DNA of 64,000 bases from an alpha proteobacterium AAP38. Its GTDB lineage: Bacteria; Pseudomonadota; Alphaproteobacteria; Azospirillales; Azospirillaceae. The position numbers were made by a program, and so were the translations under genes. Below, piece after piece: positions 19,799 through 59,561 of the stretch. Positions within the stretch are counted from its first letter, which is position 1, and each line of letters starts with the position of its first letter. The notes beneath the pieces are model-generated. The model had not been told where the DNA came from, made no database searches, and saw only the letters and a program-made list of their open reading frames with translations. The stretch is from positions 124,001 to 188,000 of the forward strand of contig LJHR01000004.1 in NCBI GenBank assembly GCA_001296005.1, read 5' to 3'.

Positions 19799-20569
19799 TT
19801 AACTGCTCCGGCCCGTCACGCGGACATTGCCGGAACCGGACTGATCGATACTCTGATTGCGGGCAACACCGTCCAGCAGCAGCGAGCCGGAACCGTTAAT
19901 CTCCACCGCCAGCGGATCGGCAACGCCGGACTGGATACGGATATCGCCGGACCCGTTGATCTCGGCATTGATGGGGCCATTGGCATGGGCCAGCGTGATC
20001 TCGCCCGACCCGTTGATCTCCAGCGCCGTCTTGCCGCTGGTACGCCCCGTGATGACGGAGCCGCTGCCATTGATCTCCACCTCGATATCGCGATCGACAT
20101 CGCCCAGCTTCACATCGCCCGACCCGTCGATGCCGATGCTGGCCGTGGACACCCGGCCCACGCTCAGCGTGCCGGAATTCATACCGTCAACGGACAGGGC
20201 ACCGCGCAGGTCGCCGACCGTCCCCTCCCCCGTAAAGCCATCAATCTCCAGCTTGGTGCCGGCGGGAACGGTCAGGGTGACGGTGATCCAGTCATCCTTA
20301 TCGCGCCAGCGGCGGTCACGCGGGCTGTCCTTCTGATGGATGACCAGATCGTCGCCTTCCTTCTTCACCTCAACCAGCTGTACCCAGCGGTCGGGGCCGG
20401 TGACGCTGGCCGTCACCTTGGAGGCGCCGGCATCCACCTTCACCTCCAGCCGGCCCACGACATCCTGCACCGTAACCTCACGGGCGGCATAATCCTGCGG
20501 CCCGAACGCCAGCGCCGGCAGGGCCGTCAGGGTCAGGGCAGAGGCGAACAGGGCGGCTTTCAGCGACAT
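19799..20569 (-). CDS. Exported DUF2807 (GIN head-domain) beta-solenoid protein, paralogue
   Basis: The 256-residue protein has a signal peptide (MSLKAALFASALTLTALPALA) and at least four EINGSG repeats alongside IDGSGDVKLG and QSGSGNVRV, the hallmark of the DUF2807 solenoid. Its N-terminal domain (VQDVVGRLEVKVDAG) resembles that of the downstream paralogue (VRDVIGDVKVTVD), so the two arose by duplication. They probably share a transcript. Confidence 0.82.
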   Translation of the reverse strand: MSLKAALFASALTLTALPALAFGPQDYAAREVTVQDVVGRLEVKVDAGASKVTASVTGPDRWVQLVEVKKEGDDLVIHQKDSPRDRRWRDKDDWITVTLTVPAGTKLEIDGFTGEGTVGDLRGALSVDGMNSGTLSVGRVSTASIGIDGSGDVKLGDVDRDIEVEINGSGSVITGRTSGKTALEINGSGEITLAHANGPINAEINGSGDIRIQSGVADPLAVEINGSGSLLLDGVARNQSIDQSGSGNVRVTGRSS

Positions 20570-20805
20570 GATGGTCAGGCTCCGATTTGATCGGTTGGTT
20601 CTGACCTGAATACAGCAACGCCCGTGCCAACCCGGAAAAGGGCGGGAATGCGTGGGAAGGAGACTTCAGCGATACAGAATGCCGCGACGAAGTGGCGGGA
20701 ATGGCGATGAGAGGTGGCGACAATGGCCATTGCACCTCTCTCCACACACCGACCCCTTTCGCCGGGATAACGTGGAGAGAGGGCGATGAAAACAGATCAC
20801 CCTGC
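20570..20805. repeat. Intergenic stretch with an 11-bp inverted repeat
   Basis: No gene is visible in these 236 bases. CCTCTCTCCAC (20735-20745) pairs with GTGGAGAGAGG (20772-20782) around a fragment reading TCGCCGGGATAACG, a degenerate relative of the inverted-repeat element at 18695. It lacks a T run, so it is not a clear terminator. Confidence 0.55.
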
Positions 20806-26210: not shown

Positions 26211-26303
26211 TTTGCATGGGTGATGCCCCGGCGGTAGAACCAATGCCAGGGGTGCTGCGCCTGCGCCCGCCGGTTTGGGTGTTGCATGATGGAGGGCTTT
26301 AAG

Positions 26304-27371
26304 ATGACCAGGGCTGAACGGCTGTCCCGGCTGCGCGACATTGCGCGCCAGCGTATCCTGGTGATCGACGGCGCCATGGGCACCATGATCCAGCGGCATA
26401 ATCTGCAAGAGGAAGATTACCGCGGCACGCGCTTTGCCGACTGGGCCCATGATGTGAAGGGCAATAACGACCTTCTGTCGGTGACCCAGCCCAAGATCAT
26501 CTATGACATCCATGCCCAGTATTTGGATGCCGGCGCCGACATCATCGAAACCAACACCTTCAATTCCACCAGCATTTCACTGGCCGATTACGGCATGGAA
26601 AAGCTGGCCTACGAGCTGAATTTCGAAGGCGCCAAGCTGGCACGCCAGGCCGCCGACGTGGCAGAGGCCGCCGACCCGACCCAGCCGCGCTATGTCGCCG
26701 GTGCCCTTGGCCCCACCAACCGCACGGCCAGCATCAGCCCCGTGGTCACCGACCCCGGCTTCCGCAATGTCGATTTTGATGAGCTGCGTCTGGCCTATAA
26801 GGAACAGACGGCGGGCCTGATCGATGGCGGGTCCGACCTTCTCATGGTCGAAACCATATTCGACACGCTGAACGCCAAGGCCGCCCTGTTCGCGATTGAG
26901 GAAGTGCTGGAGGAAAAGGGCCTGGACCTGCCCGTCCTGATCTCCGGCACCATCACCGACCGTTCGGGCCGCACCCTGTCCGGGCAGACGACGGAGGCAT
27001 TCTGGAATAGCCTGCGCCATGTGAAGCCCTTCTCCGTGGGCCTGAACTGCGCGCTGGGTGCCGATCTGATGCGCCCCTATATCCAGGAACTGTCGCGCAT
27101 CGCCGACGTCTTCGTCTCCGCCTACCCCAATGCCGGCCTGCCCAACGAGTTCGGGCAGTATGACGAAAAGCCCGAACATATGGCGTCCGACCTTCAAGGC
27201 TGGGCCAAGGATGGGCTGGTCAACATCGTCGGCGGCTGCTGCGGCTCCACGCCCGACCATATCCGGGCCATCGCGCAATCGGTAAAGGGCCTGCCGCCGC
27301 GTGAGCCGGCGAACCCTGAACGCTCCATGCGCCTGTCGGGCCTGGAGCCGTTTACGATGCCGGCCTTCTGA
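26304..27371 (+). CDS. metH: Methionine synthase, homocysteine-binding subunit (split MetH)
   Basis: The 355-residue protein corresponds to the N-terminal homocysteine S-methyltransferase domain of MetH. The zinc ligands are Cys249 (GLNCALGA) and Cys312/Cys313 ([11 protein letters not shown]), and the start region has [25 protein letters not shown] sits 8 nt upstream of the ATG at 26304. The remaining MetH domains are encoded 53 bases downstream as a separate gene, so the enzyme is a two-subunit methionine synthase. The stop is at 27369-27371, not a frameshift: the two halves have different frames, separate start signals and a spacer. Confidence 0.9.
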
Positions 27372-27424
27372 TCCATCCTTCCGTCCCCGCCCCTGCCCTT
27401 CCCTTTCAGCGACAGAGCCAAATC

Positions 27425-30106
<2,682 letters not shown>

Positions 30107-30826: not shown

Positions 30827-31269
30827 TCCTCTGGCGGATCAGCAACCATGCCGACCTGCGCGGCATTGGCGGTCTGAAAGCCGCCGGTCGCTGGCACAGC
30901 CGGGGCCGCCCCGTGGTATATCTGGCCGAAAGCCAGCCCGGCGCCTTGCTGGAGGTGTTGGTCCATATTGAGGTCACGCGGGTCGAGGACCTGCCCACCC
31001 ATTACACCCTGTTGAAAGTCGTCGGCGACGCCCCCATCACCGACTGCCCCGCCCTGCCCGACAATTGGGTGGAGAACTCGGCGGTCACACGGCGGGTTGG
31101 GGATGAATGGCTCGCCACGGGAGAAACCTGCCTGCTGCGCGTCCCCAGCGCCATCATCCCCGGCGTCTGGAACCTGCTCCTGAACCCGCTGCATGCAGAG
31201 GCGGGCGGGTTCAGGATTGAGGAGGCAATGCGGGTGCCGTTTGATCGGCGGTTGTTTGGAGGGGTGTAG
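30823..31269 (+). CDS. RES-domain toxin (NAD-degrading)
   Basis: The 148-residue protein has the RES order of motifs: LWRISN, GGRWHS-like AAGRWHSRGRPVVYLAES, then LLEVLVH and VGDEWL. RES toxins cleave NAD by phosphorolysis, stopping growth. It starts at GTG 30823 overlapping the antitoxin stop, the usual arrangement. Its 3' end is overlapped on the other strand by 59 bases of the low-GC gene at 31211-32620, whose insert begins right after this stop. Confidence 0.85.
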   Translation: MILWRISNHADLRGIGGLKAAGRWHSRGRPVVYLAESQPGALLEVLVHIEVTRVEDLPTHYTLLKVVGDAPITDCPALPDNWVENSAVTRRVGDEWLATGETCLLRVPSAIIPGVWNLLLNPLHAEAGGFRIEEAMRVPFDRRLFGGV

Positions 31270-32620
31270 AGCTCTCATCAGAGGACGTACCATTGACTTT
31301 ATATACAAATACCGCACTTCTGTTTCCCTTTATACATTCAGACAGAACAGAAATTACGCTGTCAACAGTGCAATAACGTGTACCGATCAAACCCTTTCTA
31401 TACAAACTTGTGAACTCATCGCTGCTAAGATTTCTTTTCATGGTTTCAGAGCATGCTTTTGGCGTTTCATTTCTTTTTGCGCAGGTAGAAATAAAGGAGT
31501 TCCATGCGGAAATCGGCACATACATACCGGGCATAGCCTGATTCCTGATAGGCTCAAAATTATGGGACTTAACAAAGTTGAACCAAAAATTGCAATTTAT
31601 AAATCGAAAATCCTCTAGTTCACTCCCACTCATTATTGACTCCCAGTCTTCAATATCAGAGCTATGCTTACTCATAGTTTCTATATCTTTTTTATAATTC
31701 CCGTCAGAAGATGGATAATATGAATATGCGGTCCCCTTTTTGTTTCTTTTCATCCTCTTATATTGTATAAAACAGAACGATTCTTCGTTTTCATTGTAGT
31801 ATACCATATCCACACCAAGAACATCTTCAACGGCATTACGATTTGCCATCGTTACCAGAATAGTATTATTCCCATCAGAAAATGCCCTGGTTTTAACGTT
31901 TACTGAGCCCAGAGATACGTAATCAACAAAGAACTTCGAGTCGTGATTTATAATGTCATCTTCAGTCATCATTTCTTCTGTGAACTCATTGTCAAAACCA
32001 TCAAGATACGTAGAACTGTCGGTGTATGAGTCATATTCCCAACCATCCTCATAGTTCGGAATCTTCACGTTAAAGGCTTTCAATGCAGAACGCAACGCAT
32101 CTTGCTGCTCTGAAAATAAACTAGATCTGTGTTTATCAGCATCAAAATCAATTCCATTAGCAATTCTTATCAATGTCTCTATTTTTTCTTTTATGATTTT
32201 ATTTTTTGCTACAATTTCCCTCAATATTGCATTAGCCACACCAAACTCTACGTTTGTTTCATTAGATGCAATATAACGGGAAACCAATGCTTTTGAAGAA
32301 TCGCTTGCATCTAAAAATTCAGATATTTGGGGGTCCCCCGACAATCTTACTAGACGTTTTATTTTAATACGAGACGTGCCTGTGCTTGGCGTTCCGGTCT
32401 TAACGCCAATGCCAATTGCGCTAATAGACCCCCGCTGAAAACCAACAAAGTACAATGCCACGTTTGGCGGATCTAGATCTGGAACAGAGACGGGATGAGT
32501 GAAATATCCGCGCACATTTAGACTATCTTTTATTGTCTTTACCTCTTCTTTTTGATCAAATTGTACATAAAATGCACGGTCATTTAAAGTTTCCTCTAAC
32601 TGCTCTTTCTTGTCAGTCAT
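31211..32620 (-). CDS. Low-GC gene for a probable PD-(D/E)XK nuclease (candidate defence protein)
   Basis: The 469-residue protein has much lower GC than its neighbours and a different amino-acid bias (Lys, Asn, Ser, Ile rich), so it was acquired horizontally. Residues 265-290 read EDVLGVDMVYYNENEESFCF and then IQYKRM. Glu265, Asp271 and Gln286-x-Lys288 match the PD-(D/E)XK active site as seen in Mrr-type restriction enzymes. No helicase or ATPase domain is present. AGGAG precedes the ATG. Its last 19 codons or so lie in GC-rich DNA antisense to the RES toxin gene, so the natural C-terminus may have been lost at the insertion junction. A role in defence is inference from fold, foreign origin and the adjacent toxin-antitoxin pair. 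Confidence 0.6.
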   Translation of the reverse strand: MTDKKEQLEETLNDRAFYVQFDQKEEVKTIKDSLNVRGYFTHPVSVPDLDPPNVALYFVGFQRGSISAIGIGVKTGTPSTGTSRIKIKRLVRLSGDPQISEFLDASDSSKALVSRYIASNETNVEFGVANAILREIVAKNKIIKEKIETLIRIANGIDFDADKHRSSLFSEQQDALRSALKAFNVKIPNYEDGWEYDSYTDSSTYLDGFDNEFTEEMMTEDDIINHDSKFFVDYVSLGSVNVKTRAFSDGNNTILVTMANRNAVEDVLGVDMVYYNENEESFCFIQYKRMKRNKKGTAYSYYPSSDGNYKKDIETMSKHSSDIEDWESIMSGSELEDFRFINCNFWFNFVKSHNFEPIRNQAMPGMYVPISAWNSFISTCAKRNETPKACSETMKRNLSSDEFTSLYRKGLIGTRYCTVDSVISVLSECIKGNRSAVFVYKVNGTSSDESSTPLQTTADQTAPALPPQS

Positions 32621-36330: not shown

Positions 36331-39300
36331 TCACGCCACCGCGTCCTGAAGCGCCTGCTGCTGCTCCGCCGTCATGCCCGACACCTGGGCCGGGGTGAAG
36401 GCGGAAATCTGGGTCGTGGACATGGAGTGGATCTGATAGGTGGACAGGGACACAATCTGACCGCTGGTCAGACCCGCCACCTGCGCCGCCGTCACACCGG
36501 TGATCTGCAGGGCGCTCAACTGCCCCACCTGTGCGGGGGTCAGGCTGCCGGTCTGGGTGGTGGACATGGCGGCGATCTGCCCCGGCGTCAGCTGTGCGAA
36601 CTGTGCGGTGGTCAGGGACTGCAGCTGCGTTCCCGACAGGTTGGCGACCTGGGCATTGCTGATCCCGCCAATCTGCCCTGGCGACAGGGCTGCAATCTGC
36701 TGGTTCGTCATGCCGCGCAGCTGCACCCGCAGCAGGCCCGACAGCTGACCGGCGCTGAGGCCGCCGACCGCGCCCGTAGTCATCGACTGCACCTGTTCCA
36801 CCGACAGGGCCTGAAGCTGGGCATTGCTCATGCTCGCCACCTGGGTGGAAGACAGCACGGCGATATGACCGTTGCTGAGCCCCGCCAGCGCCGACGGCGC
36901 CAGCGCCCCCAGCTGATCCGCCGACAGGGCGGAGATCTGGGTGGTCAGCATCGACCCCAGCTGTGTGGAGGTCATGCGGCTGAGGAAGGTGGTGGCCAGA
37001 CCCGACAGCTGGGTGCTGGACAGCTGGTCGAACTGCAGGCCCGTGATGGAGGCCTGCTGCGTGGCGCTCATCTCGTTCAGGCGGCTGGCCGTCAACTGGC
37101 CCAACTGCGCCGGCGACAGGGCGGCGATCTGGGTCGGGGTCACGGCGCCGAACTGTGTGCTGGTCAGGGCGTTCAGCTGCGATCCCGACAGCACACCCAC
37201 CTGCTGCGTGCTGAGTGCAGCGACAAAGCCGGCGGACAGGCCCTTGATCTGGTTGGCGTCCAAGACCGCAACCTTGTCATTGCTCAGGTAGGCCGCCTGC
37301 GTCGCCGTCAGGCCGCCCAGCTGCGTGGAGGTCAGGGAGGCGATCTCCGTGGTGGTGAAGGCCTGGATCTGGGCCTGCGTCAGGGCGCCGATCTGGCCCG
37401 CCGTCATGGAGGACAGGCGGCCACTGGCGATGGCGTGGAACTTGGTGGCATCCAGCGCCGCTGTCTGATCCGCCGTCAGGGCCGCCACCTGCTGCGTGCT
37501 CAACGCCGCGATCTGGGTGGTGGACAGGGCGTTCAGCAGGCCCGACGACATGCCGCTGATCACCGACGGCTGAATGGCGGCGATCTGGGTATTGGACAGC
37601 CGGCTGATCTGGTCGGTGGACAGGGCGTTCACCTGGGCGGCGGTCATGCCCCCCATTTGGGTGGCGCTCAGCATGATCAGCCGTTCATTATCCATGCCGG
37701 ACAGCTGCGAGGCCGGAATGGCCTTGATGTGGGCGGCTGACAGGGCGCCGATCTGTGCGGAGGTCATGTTGTTGAGCTGCGGGTGACGCAGGCCGGCGGC
37801 GGCAGCGGTGCTGATCCCCCCGATCTGAGCCGGCGACATCACATGGAACTGGAACTCCGAGAAGCTGCCGATATGGGCGCTGCCCAGCGCCGCGAACTGT
37901 CCGACGCTCATCGCCTGGATCTGGTCAGCACGCAGCATCGGCATGGTCACCGGATCGATGGCGGCGAACTGCGCCGGCGACAGGGCCTTGACCTGATCTT
38001 CCGTCAGGGCGTCCACCTGTTCGCTGCCGAAACCGGCCATCTGTGCCGTGGTCAGCACGCTGATCTGTGACGGGGTCAAGCCCTGCAAACGGTCGGCGGA
38101 CAGGGACCCGATCTGCCCCGCTGTCAGGCCGGCAATGGCCGCTGTCGGCAGCAATCCGATCTGATCGGGGCGGAACCCCGACAATTGATCCGGGCTGAGG
38201 GAGGCCAGCTGTGCCGCCGTGAAACCGCCCATCTGCGTGGCCGTCAGGCCGCCCAGCTGTTCGCGCGACAGGGCATCCATCTGGTCCGGCGACAGGCCGG
38301 CAATCTGTGGTGCCGTCATCCCGCTCAACAGTTCCGGGTTCAGGTTGCGCAACTGGTCCGCCGTCATGCCACCAAGGGCGCTGGGCGACAGTTCGGCAAA
38401 TTTTGCCACGGTCAGCTGATTGATATGGCCAGCATTCAGAACAGACACCTGATCCGCCTTCAATCCGCGCAACTGCGCCACGCTGAGGCTGCCGAACTGT
38501 TCCGCGCCCAGAGCCGAGATGCGGTTCAGGCTCAACCCGCCAATCTGGGCGGGGGTCAGGTTGCTCAGCTGATCGGCGGAAATGCCGGCAAAGCGGCTGT
38601 CGGTGAAGGCGTTCAGCTGCTCCACCGTCAGGCCCGAAATCTGCGACGGGGTCAGGCCGCCGAACTGTTCATCAGACAGGGTGGACAGGAAAAGGCCGTT
38701 CATCCCCGCCACCTGGCCTGTGGACATGGCCGCGATCTGTTCCGGGCGCAGGGCCTTTATCTGCAATTCGCCCAGACTGTTCAGCTGCCCGACCGTCAGG
38801 GCCTTCACCTGATTGGTCGACAGGTCGGCAATCTGGGTCGGCGTCAGACGGCCGATACGTTCCTCGGAAAGTCCGGCCAGCTGCGTCCCTGTCAGGCCCA
38901 TCATCTGTTCAGGCGTCAGGGCCGCCAGCTGCTCACCATTCATGGCGTTCAGCTGCGTCGCCGACAGTTCGGCCAGCTGCGCCGGGGTCAGGCCCGCGGC
39001 CTGATCATTGGTCAGCAGCGATATCTGATCGGTTGTCAGGCCCTTCACCTGAGCCACCGACATCTGGCTGATCTGTTCGGGCGTCAGGGCCGTGATCTCT
39101 TCGGCCTGCAGAACCGCGATCTGGGCCGATGACAGACTTTTGATCTGGGCCGCCGACAGGCTGGCGATCTGGTCGCCAGTCAGGGCGGATATCTGGGTGG
39201 TGGTCAGGCTGCTGATGCCGGTCGTGGTCATGCCGGCCAGCTGCGTTGTCGTCAGGCTGCCGATCTGATCGGCGGTCATGCCCTTGACCTGGGTGCCGGA

Positions 39301-41400
39301 CAGGGTGGCGATCTGTGTGGCGGACAAGGACGCCACCTGATCCGCCGACAGGGCCGCCAGGGCCGCCGGCGACAAGGCCTTGACCTGATCATTGCTGAAA
39401 TTGGCGATATGGTCGGCGGTCAGGCCCGCCACCTGCCCGTCATTCAGGGCGGCCATCTGTGTCGTGGTCAGCCCTGCCAGCTGTTCCGCCGTCAGGACGG
39501 AAATCTGCGCATTGGTCAGGCCGGACAGGGCCGTCGCCGTCAGGCTGGCGACCTGCGTGCGGGTCAAGGCCGACAGTTGGGTGCTGTTCATGGCCATGAC
39601 CTGGGAACCCGACAGGCCCCGCACCTGCGCGGCACTCAGTTCCGCCAGGGTGGTGGTGCCCAGCGTCGCCATCTGTTCGGGCGTCAGGGCGCCAACCTGC
39701 GTGGCGGTGAAGTTGCGCAGCTGCGTGGTGGTCAATCCCGCCAGCTGCGTATCGGTCAGCGATCCCATCTGCGTTGCGGTCAGGGAGGCCAGCTGCGCCG
39801 CCGTCAGGGCATTCAACTGCGTGGTTGAAAGATCGACCAGCCGGTCCTGCGACAGGCCCCGGACCTGGGTAGGGCTGAAGGCCGCGACCTGCCGCGCCGT
39901 CAGGGCACCGATCTGTTCGCTGCCCAGGGCGTTCAGCTGGGTGGTGGTTAAGGCACGCAGTTGTTCGGGCGTCAGCGCCGTGACCTGCGCATCCCCCAGG
40001 CCGGACACCTGCTCCGGCGTCATTGCGCCGATCTGGCCGGCGGACAGGCCCGCGATCTGGGTCGTGGTGATACCGGCCAGCTGGCCTTCCGCCAGGGATT
40101 TGATCTGGGTCGTGGTCAGGGCGGCGATCTGCGCCTTGCCCATGCCGGCGAACTGGTCATCGGTCAGGTTTGACAGCTGATCGGCGGTGAAGGCACGGAT
40201 CTGGTTGGCCGTCAGGCCCGCCATCTGCGTCGTGCTCATGGCCGACAGCTTGGCGCCTGTCAGGGTGGCGATCTTTGCCGCCGACAGGGAGGCAAGTTGT
40301 GCCGGGGTCAGGGCGCCGATCTGGTCGGCATTCAGACCCGCGAACTGTGCCGTGGACAGCGACGCCATCTGCGTGGCGTTGAAGCCGGCGATCTGATCGG
40401 TCGACAGGGTCGACAGCTGTTCCGGCGACAGCCACTTCACCTGTGCCGCCGTCATGGCCGTGAGTTGGGAGGGGGAGAAGGAGACCAGCTGTTCATCCGT
40501 CATGGCGGCGAACTGCGCCTGGTTGATGCCCTTCACTTGCGCGCTGCTGAATTCCGCCACCTGCTCACCCGACAAAGCGGCGAACTGCGTCGTGTTCAGC
40601 GATGAAATCTGGGTGGCGGTCAGGCCCTTCAACTGGCTGCTCAACAGGCCGGACACAGAGTCAGTCGACAGGCCCTTCAGCTGGGTCGCGGTCAGGCTGC
40701 CGATCTGGGAGGCCGTGAAGCCCGTCCATTGCACGCTATCCAGCGCGTTCAGCTGTTCCGGCCACAGGCTTTTCACCTGATTGGCGGTCAGGGCCGTCAC
40801 CTGCGCGGTGGTCAGCCGGCTCATCGTATCGCTGTTCAGCAGGCGCAGCTGCGCCGTCGTCAGGCTTTTCAGCTTCGTGGTGGAAACGGCGTTCAGCTGC
40901 GGTTCGGACAGGCTGTTGAGTTGGTCACCGGTCATAGCCGCCAGCTGCGCGCCGGAAAAGGCGCCGATCTGATCGGTGCTGAACCCGTCCAGCTGATCGG
41001 TGCGGAAAGCCTTAATCTGCGGGGCGGTGAAGGCGGTAATCTGGGCCGCGGACAGGGCGGCAATTTTTTCCGGGGTCAGAAGCGACACTTCCCGTGGTGT
41101 CAGCCCGCGTATCTGCGCCACATTCATGGCCGCGATATCCTCGGCCTCGAACGCATTGAACTGATCGTCATTCATCGCGGCCAGCTGTGCGGCGGTAAAA
41201 CCGATCTGGCTGCTGTTCAAGGCACCGATCTGTTCGGCAGAAAACCCGCTGATCTGCTTGACCGACACGGCTGCGATCTGCGTCTTCGTCAATTGGCCGA
41301 TATCGCTCAGCGAGAAGGAACGGATCTGATCGGCGGTCAGTGCCGCCATCTTCTTCGTCGTCAGTTCGCTGATCGGGCCAATGGAATTGATCGCAACCAT
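36331..41400 (-). CDS. Giant octapeptide-repeat protein, [LFM][ST]xxQ[ILV]xx
   Basis: The 1689-residue protein is almost entirely tandem octapeptides such as LTADQIRS, FSAEQIGA, LSTTQIAA, about 208 by length; one unit near residue 65 is seven residues (LNSSQIG). Ser/Thr, Gln (sometimes Glu or Asp) and two hydrophobics are kept, the rest varies. At the DNA level the 24-bp units are diverged, so this is not a recent tandem expansion. [ST]xxQ fits a helix N-cap box, so each unit probably forms a short capped helical turn in a long solenoid. There is no signal peptide and no Cys. It is 95 bases downstream of the giant kinase gene on the same strand. I recall similar LTxxQ[VI] repeat proteins labelled heme utilisation protein in other alphaproteobacteria; that label has no visible support here. 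Confidence 0.85.
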   Translation of the reverse strand: MVAINSIGPISELTTKKMAALTADQIRSFSLSDIGQLTKTQIAAVSVKQISGFSAEQIGALNSSQIGFTAAQLAAMNDDQFNAFEAEDIAAMNVAQIRGLTPREVSLLTPEKIAALSAAQITAFTAPQIKAFRTDQLDGFSTDQIGAFSGAQLAAMTGDQLNSLSEPQLNAVSTTKLKSLTTAQLRLLNSDTMSRLTTAQVTALTANQVKSLWPEQLNALDSVQWTGFTASQIGSLTATQLKGLSTDSVSGLLSSQLKGLTATQISSLNTTQFAALSGEQVAEFSSAQVKGINQAQFAAMTDEQLVSFSPSQLTAMTAAQVKWLSPEQLSTLSTDQIAGFNATQMASLSTAQFAGLNADQIGALTPAQLASLSAAKIATLTGAKLSAMSTTQMAGLTANQIRAFTADQLSNLTDDQFAGMGKAQIAALTTTQIKSLAEGQLAGITTTQIAGLSAGQIGAMTPEQVSGLGDAQVTALTPEQLRALTTTQLNALGSEQIGALTARQVAAFSPTQVRGLSQDRLVDLSTTQLNALTAAQLASLTATQMGSLTDTQLAGLTTTQLRNFTATQVGALTPEQMATLGTTTLAELSAAQVRGLSGSQVMAMNSTQLSALTRTQVASLTATALSGLTNAQISVLTAEQLAGLTTTQMAALNDGQVAGLTADHIANFSNDQVKALSPAALAALSADQVASLSATQIATLSGTQVKGMTADQIGSLTTTQLAGMTTTGISSLTTTQISALTGDQIASLSAAQIKSLSSAQIAVLQAEEITALTPEQISQMSVAQVKGLTTDQISLLTNDQAAGLTPAQLAELSATQLNAMNGEQLAALTPEQMMGLTGTQLAGLSEERIGRLTPTQIADLSTNQVKALTVGQLNSLGELQIKALRPEQIAAMSTGQVAGMNGLFLSTLSDEQFGGLTPSQISGLTVEQLNAFTDSRFAGISADQLSNLTPAQIGGLSLNRISALGAEQFGSLSVAQLRGLKADQVSVLNAGHINQLTVAKFAELSPSALGGMTADQLRNLNPELLSGMTAPQIAGLSPDQMDALSREQLGGLTATQMGGFTAAQLASLSPDQLSGFRPDQIGLLPTAAIAGLTAGQIGSLSADRLQGLTPSQISVLTTAQMAGFGSEQVDALTEDQVKALSPAQFAAIDPVTMPMLRADQIQAMSVGQFAALGSAHIGSFSEFQFHVMSPAQIGGISTAAAAGLRHPQLNNMTSAQIGALSAAHIKAIPASQLSGMDNERLIMLSATQMGGMTAAQVNALSTDQISRLSNTQIAAIQPSVISGMSSGLLNALSTTQIAALSTQQVAALTADQTAALDATKFHAIASGRLSSMTAGQIGALTQAQIQAFTTTEIASLTSTQLGGLTATQAAYLSNDKVAVLDANQIKGLSAGFVAALSTQQVGVLSGSQLNALTSTQFGAVTPTQIAALSPAQLGQLTASRLNEMSATQQASITGLQFDQLSSTQLSGLATTFLSRMTSTQLGSMLTTQISALSADQLGALAPSALAGLSNGHIAVLSSTQVASMSNAQLQALSVEQVQSMTTGAVGGLSAGQLSGLLRVQLRGMTNQQIAALSPGQIGGISNAQVANLSGTQLQSLTTAQFAQLTPGQIAAMSTTQTGSLTPAQVGQLSALQITGVTAAQVAGLTSGQIVSLSTYQIHSMSTTQISAFTPAQVSGMTAEQQQALQDAVA

Positions 41401-41495
41401 ATTCTGGTTCTTTCATTCATTCGGATTTCCAACTGGAACCACCATGCAAGGGGCGGGCCAACTTCTGGAGGAGAATGAATGGAAAAAATTTCCCC

Positions 41496-52486: not shown

Positions 52487-54544
52487 TTAATTTTCCGGCG
52501 GCCCCGGCACCTGCACCCGGATGGCGGCGCTGGCGCGCTGGCCGGTGCTGTCCATGACGGTCAGGCGGGAAAAGCCGGGGCCGGTCGGGCGCCAGAACCG
52601 GCTGTCATCGGGCAGCGGCACATTATCCGCGACCCAGCGGTAAGGTGGCCGCCCGCCCGCCGCCGACAGGGAGACGCCATCGGCCAGCGCTTCCACCTCC
52701 GCCCCGTCGGGCGGGAACAGGATGCGCAATCGTTCGCCGCGCTGCGTCGCCGCCACCGGCCCGCCGCCATCCAGCCGGGCCAGACCCGGCGGCGGCGTGG
52801 TACGAAGCAGCGCATGGTCGGGTTCCGGCACCGGCCTTGTCGGCCCGTCGGGGGGCAGCAGGTCGAACACCCGGAACAGCAACGGGGCCGCCGCCTGCCG
52901 TCCCGCCGCTCCGGGCCGGGGCGCGCCATCGGCACGCCCAACCCAGACGGCCACGGTGTAATCGGTGGAAACACCGACGGTCCAGGCGTCGCGAAAGCCA
53001 AAGGAGGTACCGGTCTTGAACGCCACCCGCCGTCGCCCGGCAATCCCCTGCCCCCCGGCCAGACCATCGGGAACGGGACTGTCGCGCAGCACGGCCAGAA
53101 CCGCCCGCGCCGCCGCAGCCCCGACCAGCCGGCCACTGGCAGGGGCCTCCGGCATATCAATCCGGTACCGTAACGGTCTGGTGACGCCGTCATCACCTAG
53201 CGCGGAATAGAGCATGGCAAGGTCGGTCAGCCGGATGCCGACACCGCCCAGGGCCAATGGCAATCCCGGCTCTGCCGCCGGTGGCAAGGATAGTTCCGCT
53301 CCCGAAATGGTTAACAGTGCCGCCAGCCGCGCCGGCCCCACCCGTTCCAGCACCCGCACGGCGGGGATGTTGAGGGAGCGTTGCAGGGCGTCGCGCGCTG
53401 TCACCACGCCGTGAAAGCCGTCATCGAAATTACGCGGCAGCCAATCCCCGAACCGCTGCGGGGCATCATCGATCAGGGTGCCGGGATGCAGGGACAGATC
53501 ATCGAAGGCCAGGGCATAGATAAAGGGTTTCAGCGCCGATCCCGGCGACCGCACGGCCCGTGACAGGTCCAGCTGCCGCACGCGCCAGTCTCCGCTGCCC
53601 AGATGGGCCAGGACACGGCGGTCCTGGTTGGCGATGACCAGGACGGACAGGTCGCCCCCCGCCTCCATCCGCGCCTGTTCCGCCCGGCCCACGGCCTCCA
53701 GCGCGCGTTGCAGGTCGGACCGCACACCGGTGCGGATGATGGACCCCGGACTTACGCCCGCCACCAGCCGTTCGGCCAGATGCGGGGCCAGCATGGGCAG
53801 GGGCAGCATGGTGGTGGGCAGCGGCTCGGAATTGGCCGCCGCCGCCACATCCGCCGCGATCAGGCCCGCCGCCACGGCCCGGTCCAGAACCTTGGTCCGC
53901 GCCGCCTTCGCCGCGTCCGGGTACCGGTCAGGCCGCAGCCTTTCCGGTGATTGCGGCAACGCCACCAGCAAGGCCGCCTGTGCCGGGGTCAGCCGGTCCG
54001 GCTCCCGCCCGAACCAGGCCAGCGAGGCGGCCCGCACCCCCTCCAGCGGCCCGCCAAACGGCGCAAGGCTCATATAGAGAGACAGCACCCCGTCCCCGCC
54101 CAGCCGGCGGCGCAGCTGCAAGGCCCGCAGCCCTTCCGTGACCTTGGCCGACAGGGTGCGCGGCTGCGGCGAGAGCAGGCGGGCCGCCTGCATGGTCAGG
54201 GTGGAGGCGCCGGAAATGACCCGCCCATGCCTCACCGCCTGACCCGCCGCCCGCACGATGGCCAGCGGATCAACACCGGGATGCCAGCCATGGCGGCGAT
54301 CCTCCACGGCCAGCAGCATGGCGCGGTAAAGCGGGTCGACGCGGGCAGAGTCGGCCGCCAGCCGCCATGCCCCCTCCGCCGTGGGAAAGGCACGCAGCAG
54401 CCGGCCTTCGCTGTCCAGCACCTCCGCCGACCGCCCGTCCCAGCGGCCCATATCGGGCGGCAGGGCCAGGTCGGCAGCCACCGCCAGCCCGGTCAGGGCC
54501 AGCAGGACCGCCGCCAGCACCCGCCGCCGGCGCCCGTTGATCAC
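52487..54544 (-). CDS. pbpC: Penicillin-binding protein 1C
   Basis: The 685-residue bifunctional class A PBP has a membrane anchor (about 9-25), a transglycosylase domain with Glu81 in LLAVEDRRHGWHPG, a transpeptidase domain with Ser336-x-x-Lys339 (GSALKPFIYAL) and KTGTSFGFRDAW, and a C-terminal BiPBP domain. PBP1C builds peptidoglycan and is typically paired with the alpha-2-macroglobulin gene, as here. It starts at GTG 54544 overlapping the macroglobulin stop (GTGA), so both are translated from one transcript. Confidence 0.92.
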   Translation of the reverse strand: MINGRRRRVLAAVLLALTGLAVAADLALPPDMGRWDGRSAEVLDSEGRLLRAFPTAEGAWRLAADSARVDPLYRAMLLAVEDRRHGWHPGVDPLAIVRAAGQAVRHGRVISGASTLTMQAARLLSPQPRTLSAKVTEGLRALQLRRRLGGDGVLSLYMSLAPFGGPLEGVRAASLAWFGREPDRLTPAQAALLVALPQSPERLRPDRYPDAAKAARTKVLDRAVAAGLIAADVAAAANSEPLPTTMLPLPMLAPHLAERLVAGVSPGSIIRTGVRSDLQRALEAVGRAEQARMEAGGDLSVLVIANQDRRVLAHLGSGDWRVRQLDLSRAVRSPGSALKPFIYALAFDDLSLHPGTLIDDAPQRFGDWLPRNFDDGFHGVVTARDALQRSLNIPAVRVLERVGPARLAALLTISGAELSLPPAAEPGLPLALGGVGIRLTDLAMLYSALGDDGVTRPLRYRIDMPEAPASGRLVGAAAARAVLAVLRDSPVPDGLAGGQGIAGRRRVAFKTGTSFGFRDAWTVGVSTDYTVAVWVGRADGAPRPGAAGRQAAAPLLFRVFDLLPPDGPTRPVPEPDHALLRTTPPPGLARLDGGGPVAATQRGERLRILFPPDGAEVEALADGVSLSAAGGRPPYRWVADNVPLPDDSRFWRPTGPGFSRLTVMDSTGQRASAAIRVQVPGPPEN

Positions 54545-57500
54545 TCCGCCACCTCAATCCGGCCCATCGCCGTCCGGGCCTTCACCTTGGGCACATACAT
54601 ATGCTCTGCCGCCACCGCCGGCAGGGCAAAGGACCCCGGCGTCACGGCGCGGACGGCATAGGCCACCCGGAAGCCCCAACGGGGATCGATCTTGAAGCCG
54701 GAAATGCCGGCGGCACCCTGTGTACCCTCCCGGTTGGCGGGCAGGGACAGGGCCGCCACAAACCGGTCGTCACGCCCCTCGGCAGTGTTGGTACCGGACA
54801 GCGCGCCCAACCAGCCATAGCCGGCCTGTTCCGGCTTGATCACGCCCTCGATCTCCAACCCGGCGGGCAGCAGGTCCAGGATGGCATAGTCGCCGGGAAC
54901 GGCCGCCATGCCTGCATTGCCCTCCACCACCACGATGATGCGGTCATTCTGCTTGATGCTGCCCGGATCGACCGGCTGCCCATCGGCGGTATAGAGGCTC
55001 TTGCGCAGGGCGATCCCGGCCTCCACCGCCGGCACCGGGTCCACCGGCACGCCTTCCACCGACAGGGTGCGATAAAGCCCGGTATCGCCCTGGTTGGCCA
55101 GCGTCAGGCCGGCGCGCAGCCGGTCCGGGGCGATGCTGGCCGATACCGGATCGCCGGTGCCGACGCTGGCCCCGTCCAGGCTGACGGCCAGCTTCGCGCC
55201 CTTCGGGGCCAGCCCGGCAGCGGCACGCAGGATCCAGGCCTTTTCCTGGGTGTTCGTCTCCTCCGCGCGGGTATCCAGGACCTGTGCGGTGTCCAGCAGG
55301 GCGGGGATCGCCACACCGCGCCCGCCCGCCGCCATCAGGCTGGCGATGGCATAGGTGTCGCGCAGGCGGCTGCCATAGGTGTCGGTGCGGACCGGCAGCT
55401 TGGGGCGCTTGCCCGTCCGTCGCGCCATTTCCCGCGCTGCATCCTCCTCCGCCTCCTTCGCGGCCCAATCGGCCAGCTTCTCGCGGGCGGCATCAAAGGA
55501 TTGGCCCGCCCGCGCCCGCTCACCCACGGCATCCAACGCTGCGCCCAGATGGGCGGCGGCCAGGGCCTGTTCGGGCATCTTGCTGTCATGGAAATAGCGC
55601 AGGTCGCCGACATTGGCCTTGCCCTTGCGGGCCAGGACCCAGGCCGCATAGGCCCGCACCGCCGGCGGATAGGATCGGCTGGACGCATCGCCCAGCCATT
55701 GCCGGCCCAGCGTCAGCGCATCCGCCGGGATCACAAAGCCCTGGTCGGAGGCCAGTTCCAGGAAGTCCATGGCAAAGACCGACAGCCAGGGATCGGCAGC
55801 ATCCCCATACTGGCCCCACATACGGAAGCCCCCTTCCGGGTCCTGCATGGACAGGACGCGGTCGATACTGTCCTGCACCCGGTCGGCAATGGCCTTGTCC
55901 TGCTTCGTGCCGGCCAACAGGGCCAGATCGTTGAACCAGAGCAGGGGCATGGCCCGGCTGACCGTCTGTTCCAGACAGCCGAAGGGGTACCGGTCCAGCC
56001 AGCGCAGCATGCCCGGCACGTCAATCCCCTGCCAGCGGGAGATAGACAGCGACACCGCCTCCGTCCCCGGCACCAGCCCGGTCAGGAGGTCGGCGGGCAG
56101 GACGGCATTCTCCCCCGGCGCCAGGGTCGCCACCATCTCCCGCGTGACGGGCAGTTGCGGCGGACGCACCTGGATGGGCCAGGACCGTTCCACCTGGAAC
56201 CCGCCCGGCCCGACCACCGACAGGGTGACGGTGCCGATGCCGGCTTCGGTCGCATCCAGCGGTACGGTGAAGACCTGCCGCTCCCCCTGTGCCAGGGTGA
56301 CGGACCGCGCCGCCTCGCCACCGGCGACAGCGCCCTTGGCGCCCAGGGCCAGCCGGTAGGAACCCGCGGCCCCTTCGACATTATGGATCAGGACGGTCGC
56401 ACGGCCCTTGTCCGACGGGGACAGGAAGCGGGGCAGGATCACCTCCGCCACTACGGGATCGCGGACCGTCATCCGCCTTTCCGCCGACCCCAGCTTGTCC
56501 GTGTCCCAGGCGACGGCCATCAGGCGCAGCTCGCCCTGAAAATCCGGGATGGTCAGGGGAATATCGGCCTTGCCCGCCGCATCCAGCGCCACGATGCCGG
56601 AAAACAGGGCCACGGTGCGGGTCGGCACCACGTCCAGCCCGCGCCCGCCGAACCCGTCGCCGCCCTGGTCATCACCCTGGGCCTGCGCCCGGATCAGGCG
56701 GCCATAATCATCGCGCATCGACACGCCCAATTGCCGCTTCGCCAGGAAGTAATCCTGCGGCTTGGGCGTGGCAAAGCGGGTCAGGCCCAGAATGCCCTGA
56801 TCGACGGCAGCCAGGGTGACATGCGCCTGTGCCCCCGCTCCCTTCACGGCCACTGGCACCGTGATGGTCTGGCGCGGCAGCACCCTATCCGGGGCGGCGA
56901 TGGCAATATCCAGCGTGCGGCGGGCCGCATCCATGCCCAGCCAGGCAACCCCGACGGCCCGCACCGGCGCATGGCCCAGAGAGGCGTTCAGCGGACGGTA
57001 GAGGGTGACCAGCGCATAGGCGCCCGGCCCCCAATCCGCCCCGACCTTCACATCGACATCGGCACCGCCCGCCGGCACAGCGATGCTGCGCGTTTCATGC
57101 ACCGTCTCGTTGGCGATGACCAGCAGCGCCTCCCCCGCCACCTCGCTGTCGATGCGCAGGCGGGCCGTGTCGCCGGGGGCATAGCCGGCACGGTCGGCAG
57201 CCAGTTTCAGGCGGTCGGGGCGGTCCGGCCCGCTTTCGCCATACCAGCCGCTGGAGAAGGCGACGGACGTGGCTGCCGGACTGGCGCTATCGGCCACAAT
57301 CAGCCGGTATCCGCCCCAGGTCACGGCCTGCGACAGGACCGACGGTTTGTCGGCGGCGATATCGATTGTTCCGCTGGCCACCAGCTTCTCACGCGGCACC
57401 CGCTGATATTTCCAACTTCCCCCGCTGCGGAACCATTGCCAGGTGGAGGTATCCTTGATCAAACGCCAGGACAGGCCCTTGGCGGCAACCGGGTTGCCAT

Positions 57501-59481
57501 CGGCATCGACGGCAATGACCTCAAACCCCGCCTTGGCGCCCTCCGGCACCGCGTCCTGAAACTGCGGGCGGATGCCGATGGACAGCGGCGTGACGAGGAC
57601 AGGCACATAGACATGTTCGGCGGTCGCCCGCCCACCCGGTTCCCGGATGGCGACATAGATGTCGGCGCGCAGCGGCCTTGTCCCCGGCACCTGCGCCGGG
57701 ACCGTACCCGTCACCTGCGCCTTACCCGCCGCATCCGTCTCCGCCACCGTCAGGTCCACCGGCTCCACATCGAAACTGTCCGCCGGGGTTCCCCATTGAT
57801 AACCCTTGTGGCGGGGGAACGGGGCCGGGTCCGGCTCCAGCGTCAGCCGCGCCTCACCGGCCAGGGCGGCACCGGGGGCACCATAGAGGAACCGGGCACT
57901 GACATTCAGGACCACCGCCTCACCTGGGGCCAGCCGGGCCGGCTTGTTGTCGATGGCAACGTCAAGACGCTGCGGCACGAAATCCTGCACCTGGAAGCGT
58001 ACCGATCCGATGGCGGGGCCAGCAGGATCGGCATGGGCCGCCGCTTCCCACTGCCCCCGGTTGGCACTGGCCGGCAGGGTGATGGACAGGTGGCCCGCCG
58101 CACCGCCGTCATCAGCCATCTCGAACCGCTGATGCTCCTTGCCGTCGGGCCGCTTCAGCTTGATGGTTAGACGCCGGCCCGGCAGGGCCAGGGCCTGCGG
58201 ATCGCGCAGCAGGGTGGTCAGTTCCACCGTCTCCCCGGGACGGTAGATGCCGCGTTCGGTATAAAGGAAAGCATCCGCCGCCGCCGACGGCTGGCGTCCC
58301 TCCACACCTCGGTCGGACAGATCGAAACCGGGCCGGCGCAGGTCCAGGAAGTTGAAATCGCCATCTTCGCGATAGGCCATGACCATGACGGGCGCCAGAC
58401 CGCCCTCGCCGCGCAGCAGCCCGGCATCGAAATGGAAAAGCCCCTTGCCGTCGCTTTTCGCCTCTGCCAGCACATCATTGTTGCGGGCGATCAAGGACAG
58501 GCGCACGCCGCCGACGGGCTTGGCGCTGGACAGGGATCGCACCGAAAGGGTCAGGCCATCCGCGCCTCGGAAGCTGGTCAGGCCCAGGTCGGACTGCACC
58601 ACCCATTGCCCGGCCTGGGGCCGGTAATCGTCGGAATAATAGTAATTATCCTCCCCGTCCTGGCGCGGGGCATCGGGGTTGCTGGCTACCAGCAGGTAAG
58701 CACCGGGTTCGGTCTCGCCGATGGCATCGGCCAGGGGGAACAGGGTGGTGACGGCACTGTTGCGCGGACCCGTCACGGTCACTTCGCCCTGCCAGACCAG
58801 CCGCCCCTCATCCTGCTCCACCTCCTTCGCGCTGTAGGGGTAGAAGCTGCGTTCATCCACAAAATCCTGCCGCATGCGGGCCAGCATGCGGTCGCCGACA
58901 CGGTAGAGCTTGATGGCAAGCCGGTCGACATTGACGGTGGTGATGGGCAGGCCGTCGCCCGTTTCACGAGGCAGGATGAAGCCCTGGCCCAACGCCACAG
59001 CCGGCTGCCGGTCGGTCAGGGCCAGTGTCACCGTGGCCGCCGCCTCCAGCGTGCCGGCGCCGGCACCCGCCGGCAGACCGGGGCGCAGGGTGGCCTGATA
59101 CTCAGTGCCGAAGGTCAGGCCCGACAGGCACAGCTTCTCCCGCGCTACCCGGAAGGCCGCGCGCGTGTCAGCCGGCAGCTCGACATAATCGGCGTAATTG
59201 ACGGTACCCGTCTCGTCCAACGGCTTGTTGAAGACCAGACAGGCCTCCGCGACAGTGCCACCGGCCTCTGTCGTCACGCGGGTAAAGCGGAAGGCACGAT
59301 CATCCGGGGTTGCGGGCGGCAATGTCCTGGCCGTCACCGGCTGTGTCGCGGTCACCGGTGGCGGGTCCAGCTTCGCCGCCATCCTGTCCGCTGGCCGCAG
59401 CGCCTGCCATCCGGCAAAGCCAATGGCCCCCAAGGACAGCACCGCGACCGCCGTCAGGACGACACGCTTCGATACCGGCAT
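54541..59481 (-). CDS. Bacterial alpha-2-macroglobulin (protease-trap) family protein
   Basis: The 1646-residue protein has an N-terminal membrane helix (about 6-24) instead of the usual lipobox, several MG beta domains, a bait-like region, and a thioester domain with Cys1169-Leu-Glu-Gln1172 (FGCLEQTVSRAMPLLW), so the thioester is intact. It would lie in the periplasm and trap foreign or leaking proteases, with PBP1C repairing damaged wall. GGAGGGGG precedes the ATG at 59481; an in-frame ATG 13 codons earlier is less likely. Family and partner are as in E. coli yfhM-pbpC. Confidence 0.93.
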   Translation of the reverse strand: MPVSKRVVLTAVAVLSLGAIGFAGWQALRPADRMAAKLDPPPVTATQPVTARTLPPATPDDRAFRFTRVTTEAGGTVAEACLVFNKPLDETGTVNYADYVELPADTRAAFRVAREKLCLSGLTFGTEYQATLRPGLPAGAGAGTLEAAATVTLALTDRQPAVALGQGFILPRETGDGLPITTVNVDRLAIKLYRVGDRMLARMRQDFVDERSFYPYSAKEVEQDEGRLVWQGEVTVTGPRNSAVTTLFPLADAIGETEPGAYLLVASNPDAPRQDGEDNYYYSDDYRPQAGQWVVQSDLGLTSFRGADGLTLSVRSLSSAKPVGGVRLSLIARNNDVLAEAKSDGKGLFHFDAGLLRGEGGLAPVMVMAYREDGDFNFLDLRRPGFDLSDRGVEGRQPSAAADAFLYTERGIYRPGETVELTTLLRDPQALALPGRRLTIKLKRPDGKEHQRFEMADDGGAAGHLSITLPASANRGQWEAAAHADPAGPAIGSVRFQVQDFVPQRLDVAIDNKPARLAPGEAVVLNVSARFLYGAPGAALAGEARLTLEPDPAPFPRHKGYQWGTPADSFDVEPVDLTVAETDAAGKAQVTGTVPAQVPGTRPLRADIYVAIREPGGRATAEHVYVPVLVTPLSIGIRPQFQDAVPEGAKAGFEVIAVDADGNPVAAKGLSWRLIKDTSTWQWFRSGGSWKYQRVPREKLVASGTIDIAADKPSVLSQAVTWGGYRLIVADSASPAATSVAFSSGWYGESGPDRPDRLKLAADRAGYAPGDTARLRIDSEVAGEALLVIANETVHETRSIAVPAGGADVDVKVGADWGPGAYALVTLYRPLNASLGHAPVRAVGVAWLGMDAARRTLDIAIAAPDRVLPRQTITVPVAVKGAGAQAHVTLAAVDQGILGLTRFATPKPQDYFLAKRQLGVSMRDDYGRLIRAQAQGDDQGGDGFGGRGLDVVPTRTVALFSGIVALDAAGKADIPLTIPDFQGELRLMAVAWDTDKLGSAERRMTVRDPVVAEVILPRFLSPSDKGRATVLIHNVEGAAGSYRLALGAKGAVAGGEAARSVTLAQGERQVFTVPLDATEAGIGTVTLSVVGPGGFQVERSWPIQVRPPQLPVTREMVATLAPGENAVLPADLLTGLVPGTEAVSLSISRWQGIDVPGMLRWLDRYPFGCLEQTVSRAMPLLWFNDLALLAGTKQDKAIADRVQDSIDRVLSMQDPEGGFRMWGQYGDAADPWLSVFAMDFLELASDQGFVIPADALTLGRQWLGDASSRSYPPAVRAYAAWVLARKGKANVGDLRYFHDSKMPEQALAAAHLGAALDAVGERARAGQSFDAAREKLADWAAKEAEEDAAREMARRTGKRPKLPVRTDTYGSRLRDTYAIASLMAAGGRGVAIPALLDTAQVLDTRAEETNTQEKAWILRAAAGLAPKGAKLAVSLDGASVGTGDPVSASIAPDRLRAGLTLANQGDTGLYRTLSVEGVPVDPVPAVEAGIALRKSLYTADGQPVDPGSIKQNDRIIVVVEGNAGMAAVPGDYAILDLLPAGLEIEGVIKPEQAGYGWLGALSGTNTAEGRDDRFVAALSLPANREGTQGAAGISGFKIDPRWGFRVAYAVRAVTPGSFALPAVAAEHMYVPKVKARTAMGRIEVAE

Positions 59482-59561
59482 TTTCCCCCTCCCCGAAACG
59501 TCCGGAAAGGAGAGTGCCAACAGCTTTATGGCAATACAACGGTCAGGGGCGGGCCTATCAC

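Follow-up and report, generated by a model that had tools for sequence, protein, structure and literature searches.

The repeat gene and its predicted fold

The window analysed here, a 64 kb stretch of an alphaproteobacterial contig, contains on its minus strand a giant gene of the ALTTAQ repeat family, together with a sigma-54-type promoter sequence and a large kinase gene (Table 1). The protein is assigned, by inference, to the genus Niveispirillum. Elsewhere in the window, a 469-residue ORF without a Pfam match (31211–32620) has a third-position GC of 0.35, lies in a low-GC stretch (0.54–0.56) and was possibly acquired. Methionine synthase (26286–30106) is encoded by two adjacent ORFs, one with the homocysteine domain and one with the pterin, B12 and activation domains, and at 52487–59520 a bacterial alpha-2-macroglobulin adjoins a penicillin-binding protein of the transglycosylase-transpeptidase type that carries a BiPBP_C domain.

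Table 1 Features of the repeat locus in window coordinates.
Feature	Position	Strand	Basis and remarks
C-terminal tail LQDAVA, residues 1684–1689	36334..36351	(-)	ORF translation, segmentation
Final 32 octads, residues 1428–1683, charges few, stripe gone	36352..37119	(-)	Phase analysis
170 octads bearing the acidic stripe, residues 68–1427	37120..41199	(-)	Phase analysis
Lone 7-residue unit, residues 61–67 (LNSSQIG)	41200..41220	(-)	Segmentation, orthologue alignment
Six N-terminal octads, residues 13–60	41221..41364	(-)	Segmentation, orthologue alignment
ALTTAQ octad-repeat ORF, 1689 aa, about 210 units	36331..41400	(-)	ORF list, Pfam profile, octad segmentation
Sigma-54-type (-24/-12) promoter sequence TGGCCCGCCCCTTGCA	41445..41460	(-)	Pattern and shuffle scan; starts 60 bases before ATG
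Upstream neighbour, Ser/Thr kinase-AAA_16-GAF-histidine kinase protein, 1741 aa	41496..46721	(-)	Pfam; neighbour in three nearly identical orthologues only

The repeat gene is a single ORF with an ATG start codon. Segmentation with an iterated 8-position profile resolves its product into 209 octads of the pattern [LMFI][ST]xx[Q][ILVMF]xx plus one 7-residue unit, agreeing within two with the original prediction of about 208 units. That prediction also described exact 8-residue spacing broken by one 7-residue unit near residue 65. The short unit is indeed present, and 206 of the 208 steps between successive octads measure exactly 8 residues; one extra residue occurs near the N-terminus. Position 1 of the octad is L, M, F or I, position 2 mostly T or S, position 5 Q (164 of 209 octads) and position 6 I, L, V, F or M. 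Self-identity of the protein is 0.28–0.31 at lags of 8, 16, 24 and 32 residues, against 0.093 expected from composition and 0.04–0.10 at lags not divisible by 8. At the DNA level the repeats are diverged, as predicted, with TRF reporting four arrays only (≤2.9 copies, 70–76% match).

The 7-residue unit is found at the same place in 9/9 orthologues, and a unit of this length also precedes an F[ST]xxQ octad at residue 48–72 in several other ALTTAQ groups. Directly after it stands the most conserved octad, FTAAQLAA, with seven of eight positions invariant among seven representatives. Between 36352 and 41199, Lys/Arg at octad position 7 and Gly at position 8 favour alternate octads (frequency 0.5), an alternation that recurs at position 7 in ALTTAQ relatives. 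Cys is absent from the window protein and occurs once in total across nine orthologues. Inspection of residues 1–30 by eye revealed no hydrophobic stretch.

The match to PF20080 (ALTTAQ repeat) reaches 686.5 bits (cut-off 26.4), with 61 matching stretches, so the octad repeat is already known and not undescribed. PDB entry 9zem, ‘HeliScrew4’, has the same kind of octad. To our knowledge PF20080 has no assigned function, and the open-access literature searched yielded no publication on the ALTTAQ repeat, HeliScrew or 9ZEM. Eight Pfam families match the protein at E up to 1; neither an RTX family nor the ice nucleation octapeptide family is among them, nor is any pentapeptide family, and LRR_EndoS stays under its cut-off (21.3 vs 27.9). 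The label ‘ice nucleation protein’ is attached to Cereibacter ALTTAQ relatives in plasmid records. Profile scores exceed the cut-off for CAAP1 (122.2 vs 25), SAM_3 (34 vs 22.6) and DUF4351 (25.8 vs 25). A single stretch passes alone for CAAP1 and none for the other two, so we read these as summed weak octad matches and reject membership. Genomes over the PF20080 cut-off, own genome included, number 25 of 398 in a survey of the phylum and 22 of 99 in a survey of relatives.

AlphaFold2 predicts helices with high confidence in two stretches of the protein, where disorder had been considered as the contrary outcome. Residues 268–667 were modelled from the single sequence with mean pLDDT 91.5 and pTM 0.78, and residues 1–328, with a 5-row alignment of the protein’s own segments, with pLDDT 92.6 and pTM 0.82. 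In the former model each octad forms a single short helix, 50 in all, mostly spanning octad positions 3–7 (DSSP). Given this placement, S/T at position 2 would be the N-cap and Q at position 5 the N3 residue, which supports the proposed reading of [ST]xxQ as a helix-capping box. The prediction of an unusual helical solenoid is likewise supported by the models. Foldseek detected no close fold in the PDB to April 2026. A fold search against viral models gave weak matches only.

Octad number and charge periodicity

An orthologue at least 50% identical was found in 8 of 11 genomes of the genus, own genome included. A ninth (G098), from a different family, is 49% identical to the window protein. 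These nine proteins from two families are 46–97% identical and 1689–1693 residues long, and they align with zero internal gaps, the only gaps (2 or 4 residues) being confined to the first eight columns. Six orthologue pairs are 47–72% identical in register and 29–30% on average when offset by whole units, so octads have counterparts between orthologues. With rising distance, 140, 75 and 60 of 198 24-residue windows placed their own position best or tied best. The number of units is constant across related species while about half of the residues have changed.

The tree of the nine orthologues implies about 3274 substitutions, with no indel inside the alignment. Whole-octad indels number 5, 3 and 3 in three groups of relatives, over about 1109, 1292 and 1315 substitutions (11 in about 3716), a rate that would give about ten in the window group, where none was found. 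The same three groups contain two further indels, of 1 and 2 residues, which are not whole octads. In the Shinella group (six proteins, 2262–2268 aa) there are six indels of 1–3 residues and none of a whole octad. Among orthologue pairs, dN/dS is 0.08, 0.09 and 0.10 for the three closest, and 0.13 and 0.22 for two that are farther apart. The former values indicate that selection keeps the protein, in line with the original prediction that selection maintains the pattern. It is unusual for a tandem repeat of 210 units to hold its unit number through a change of half its residues, and through its octad number a length constraint on a repeat protein becomes open to direct test.

Relatives gain or lose blocks of 24, 10, 48 and 20 octads, and also of 4 and 3. 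In the G006 copy (L047:5702–11614) of a second ALTTAQ gene of Niveispirillum, described below, equal-score matches lie 576 bp apart, that is, 24 octads or seven predicted turns.

Position-specific charge recurs at lags of 7, 10, 14, 17 and 24 octads. In five window-group proteins the periodogram peaks at 0.2905–0.292 per octad, equivalent to 3.42–3.44 octads per turn or about 105 degrees per octad. The twist as a property of the fold would follow from this periodicity, in which sampling at integer octads makes 105 degrees per octad indistinguishable from 255. Acidic periodicity reaches a power of 20–29 in the four window-group proteins tested, against a permutation maximum of 7.8–9.8. Averaged over five orthologues, the acid phase lies at 145–168 degrees in five consecutive blocks covering residues 68–1427, and over residues 1428–1683 the acidic pattern is lost. 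Successive 45-degree sectors of the window protein (24–26 octads per sector) hold 0, 0, 12, 18, 22, 24, 9 and 7 acids. On the predicted rod, the acidic residues would form a straight stripe on one side from residue 68 to 1427.

Lys/Arg at position 7 number 6, 7, 1, 1, 1, 0, 2 and 9 in the same sectors, and their phase differs from that of position-4 acids by 172 degrees in the window protein and 192 degrees in the most distant orthologue. Over all positions, Lys/Arg of the window protein are spread across the sectors (7, 8, 6, 7, 6, 4, 6 and 14), so the opposite face rests on position 7, mostly in the N-terminal half. A basic face over all octad positions is weak in the window group (R 0.11–0.21), its antiphase being reached by 0 to 51 of 2000 permutations. 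Third codon bases give at most 5.7 near the stripe frequency (14 tests) against 25 for position-4 acids; this control covers only the window gene, and its sites are not all strictly synonymous.

Across 35 family proteins, hand-chosen from retrieved loci and not all independent, the acidic peak in the band exceeds 300 permutations in 24 and falls short in 11. The angle between bases and acids is within 120–240 degrees in 26 of the 35, with a mean of 179 degrees, and outside that range in nine. Three f83 proteins with few acids (L107, L108 and L112) are among the misses. The sequence may by itself predict how the rod twists (105 degrees per octad) and that one face is charged, which would offer structure prediction a sharp check and the design of rods a template.

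Promoter and genomic context

A sigma-54-type element (GG-N10-GC) lies at -59 to -67 in 9/9 orthologues, including G007, where only 62 bases were available upstream for the scan. The scan used the sigma-54 -24/-12 consensus. Shuffle P values are 0.000–0.003 in eight orthologues and 0.020 in the weakest, G098. The pattern TGGCNCGNNNNTTGCW, relaxed at one base after the site was known, has two matches in the 64 kb window, where 0.22 would be expected, and 2 of 100 shuffles also gave two matches. The other match, TGGCACGGGCGTTGCT at 20614–20629 (-), lies about 45 bases upstream of an ORF at 19799–20569 (-). The best reading is that the orthologue group is under RpoN control from its own sigma-54-type promoter, as judged from these sites.

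The second ALTTAQ gene carries a similar element at -102 to -109 in four of five tested copies (of eight), two of them weak (P 0.04) and one in the own genome. A LuxO-like sigma-54 activator is encoded near this gene (NF041946, E 5e-159, under its cut-off). In most other ALTTAQ genes scanned, a sigma-54-type site is no better than in shuffles, and such a site is ruled out as a feature of the family.

Neighbours of the window-gene orthologues vary between lineages. Type I secretion and GT41 genes scoring above thresholds are absent from the 64 kb window and from beside all nine orthologues, in flanks of between a few bases, where the contig ends close by (G007, G003), and about 10 kb. A weak HlyD-like ORF (40 bits, threshold 150) lies directly downstream of the G098 orthologue. 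Thr makes up 11–12% of the window orthologue and 13–30% of secretion-linked relatives, and Pro is higher in the window orthologue.

The second ALTTAQ gene of Niveispirillum adjoins an HlyB-type exporter, an HlyD protein and two TPR-GT41 proteins. The exporter scores 600 bits with TIGR01846, under the cut-off of 726, and its C39-like domain is over the cut-off in L057 and under it in L035; the HlyD protein is over the cut-off of TIGR01843. In the own genome (G000) the second gene is apparently split by a contig break (end of C1, L034; start of C3, L035), and the type I exporter, HlyD and two GT41 genes lie beside the C3 piece. A GT41 survey of 16 hand-picked genomes places two of the four GT41 genes of the own genome at this locus.

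A similar set of exporter, HlyD and GT41 genes lies near ALTTAQ genes in Cereibacter and on two Pseudomonas plasmids, with TolC too in Pseudomonas. In G465 (C1:2815886–2832184), an ALTTAQ open frame of 5446 aa, read at its two ends (L095, L096), is followed downstream by TPR-GT41, TolC, HlyD and exporter genes. Among 54 genomes or records, an exporter pair lies within 15 kb in 17, GT41 in 28, both in 16 and either in 29. These are the loci retrieved rather than a random draw, with several close kin (six Shinella) and two members, G178 and G287, counted despite having no usable repeat ORF. GT41 was assigned by Pfam in eight proteins and by our own profile elsewhere. The ABC, HlyD and GT41 profiles were built partly from loci later counted, so the 17, 28 and 29 of 54 are a description of linkage and not a test of it. 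The open-access literature searched yielded no publication joining GT41 or O-GlcNAc with type I secretion. The ALTTAQ family thereby gains its first testable biology, in putative sigma-54 control of the orthologue group and a recurring T1SS and GT41 link in alpha- and gammaproteobacteria.

The window orthologue and the second ALTTAQ gene occur in the same 8 of 11 genomes, which may reflect common descent, and the exporter occurs in those eight and in G001. The latter (L150:8304–13983) has kept the exporter-HlyD pair and a GT41-like ORF (315 bits), with no ALTTAQ match and another large ORF nearby. A second T1SS-like exporter, 41–44% identical and present in the same eight genomes, with a 40% match in G004, was considered as a dedicated exporter and rejected, as no ALTTAQ gene is near it in L151, L152, L153 or L162. 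At these four loci its neighbours look, by eye, like polysaccharide genes.

Interpretation and comparison with known systems

The explanation we hold with moderate confidence is a fixed-length, charge-striped helical strut, expressed from its own RpoN-controlled promoter, probably exported and assembling laterally, in which export and assembly are the conjectural steps. The predicted fold class, the register, the fixed length, the acidic stripe in the sequence and the promoter sequence come from computation, and the twist of the fold, its handedness and the length of the rod are likewise conjectural. Each octad would form one short helix of about five residues, capped by S/T (N-cap) and Q (N3), and one superhelical turn of the stacked helices would take up about 3.43 octads (27.5 residues), the value given by the sequence periodicity. 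The 210 octads would then make about 61 turns and, at 1 nm per layer, a long stiff rod of roughly 60 nm. One side would be acidic over residues 68–1427, with position-7 Lys/Arg on the opposing side. The protein has a constant length among the orthologues, and its expression would be driven from its own sigma-54-type promoter. Exit would most likely be through a type I system encoded elsewhere, beside the second ALTTAQ gene with its weaker sigma-54-type site. On the surface or in the matrix, rods might associate laterally, acidic face against basic face.

Export is suggested by the joint occurrence of the two ALTTAQ genes in 8 of 11 genomes, by sigma-54-type sites on both and by the near-absence of Cys; the lack of a linked exporter and the low Thr content point against it. 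The original prediction had left the location between the cytoplasm and a non-classical exit. Non-classical export is the better guess, because some family members adjoin type I secretion genes. In a bolder version, which we consider doubtful, ALTTAQ proteins would be screw-like Janus rods packing acidic-to-basic into an ordered extracellular sheet or fibre, with the window orthologue as a length-calibrated member whose octads are fixed because rods must end in register. If true, ALTTAQ rods would form a bacterial surface array made of all-alpha rods.

Alternatively, though with less probability, the protein is an intracellular or periplasmic scaffold or ruler of fixed length that binds partners, membrane or nucleic acid along its charged face, with export limited to the Thr-rich relatives. 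Orthologues with no secretion or GT41 neighbour in the examined flanks would fit this role, as would their Thr and Pro content, and the six Shinella proteins also lack a secretion or GT41 neighbour while keeping their octad number. A scaffold confined to the cell accounts less readily for the link between the two genes in the same 8 of 11 genomes, one of them adjacent to an exporter that is found in those eight and one more, or for the sigma-54-type sites that both carry. The near-absence of Cys fits export, yet it is also true of stand-alone relatives.

It is unlikely that the protein is an ordinary giant adhesin stalk, its length unselected and frozen only since the DNA repeats are too diverged to recombine. 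The units are indeed diverged in DNA, whereas a 207-copy DNA array was present in the single relative of variable length that was examined. However, small in-frame indels of any size are missing as well over about 3274 substitutions, and dN/dS is 0.08–0.10 in the closest pairs.

Still less probably, ancient duplications of 24 octads left the 3.43-octad charge period behind as a fossil, with no structural face. Blocks of 24 octads do recur, or are gained and lost, in relatives, and units of the window group are slightly more alike at lags 10, 14 and 24. Position-4 acids, however, also peak at lags 7 and 17, the frequency recurs in groups of low similarity, acids and position-7 Lys/Arg are in opposite phase, and the third codon bases of the window gene lack a strong line. 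A signalling operon with the upstream kinase-ATPase-GAF-histidine kinase protein as partner is very improbable and was rejected: the two genes share a strand, 95 bp apart, and two 97% identical orthologues retain the pair, but of the six remaining among eight other orthologues five have different neighbours and the sixth (G007) has its contig start at the gene, and a promoter-like site precedes the repeat gene itself.

Among known structures, the seven best PDB matches in Foldseek are mesothelin chains, with TM-scores of 0.21–0.27 (query) and 0.25–0.39 (target). According to PMC10035497, mesothelin folds into a compact right-handed solenoid whose 24 short helices fill nine layers, about 2.7 to a layer. 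Mesothelin, kin to stereocilin and otoancorin, is the best structural match, but at TM-scores of only 0.21–0.39. It is a human protein with disulfides, a paper on it (PMC2628672) makes no mention of bacterial terms, and we claim no homology to the ALTTAQ protein. HeliScrew4 (9zem) matches the repeat protein by sequence (E 6e-20) and has the same kind of octad (ALTPEQIA), in a 120-residue chain far shorter than the window protein. Its likeness is judged from its sequence and the name given by the depositor, and it is not among the 50 Foldseek matches listed of 570 (library to April 2026).

Compared with the PF20080 members linked to secretion, the window group differs in its fixed length, lower Thr and higher Pro, and in standing without a secretion or glycosyltransferase neighbour in the examined flanks. 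New here are the single-sequence fold prediction, the fixed length, the acidic stripe, the sigma-54-type promoter sequence and the T1SS/GT41 context elsewhere in the family. ALTTAQ relatives in Niveispirillum, Cereibacter, Pseudomonas and others, which sit with an ABC exporter, HlyD and TPR-GT41 genes, resemble the combination of type I secreted giant adhesins with GT41 (OGT/HMW1C-like) enzymes. Type I secreted giant adhesins are as a rule beta-rich, of RTX or Ig-like type, whereas the ALTTAQ protein, whose window orthologue stands without an adjoining cassette, is predicted to be all-alpha.
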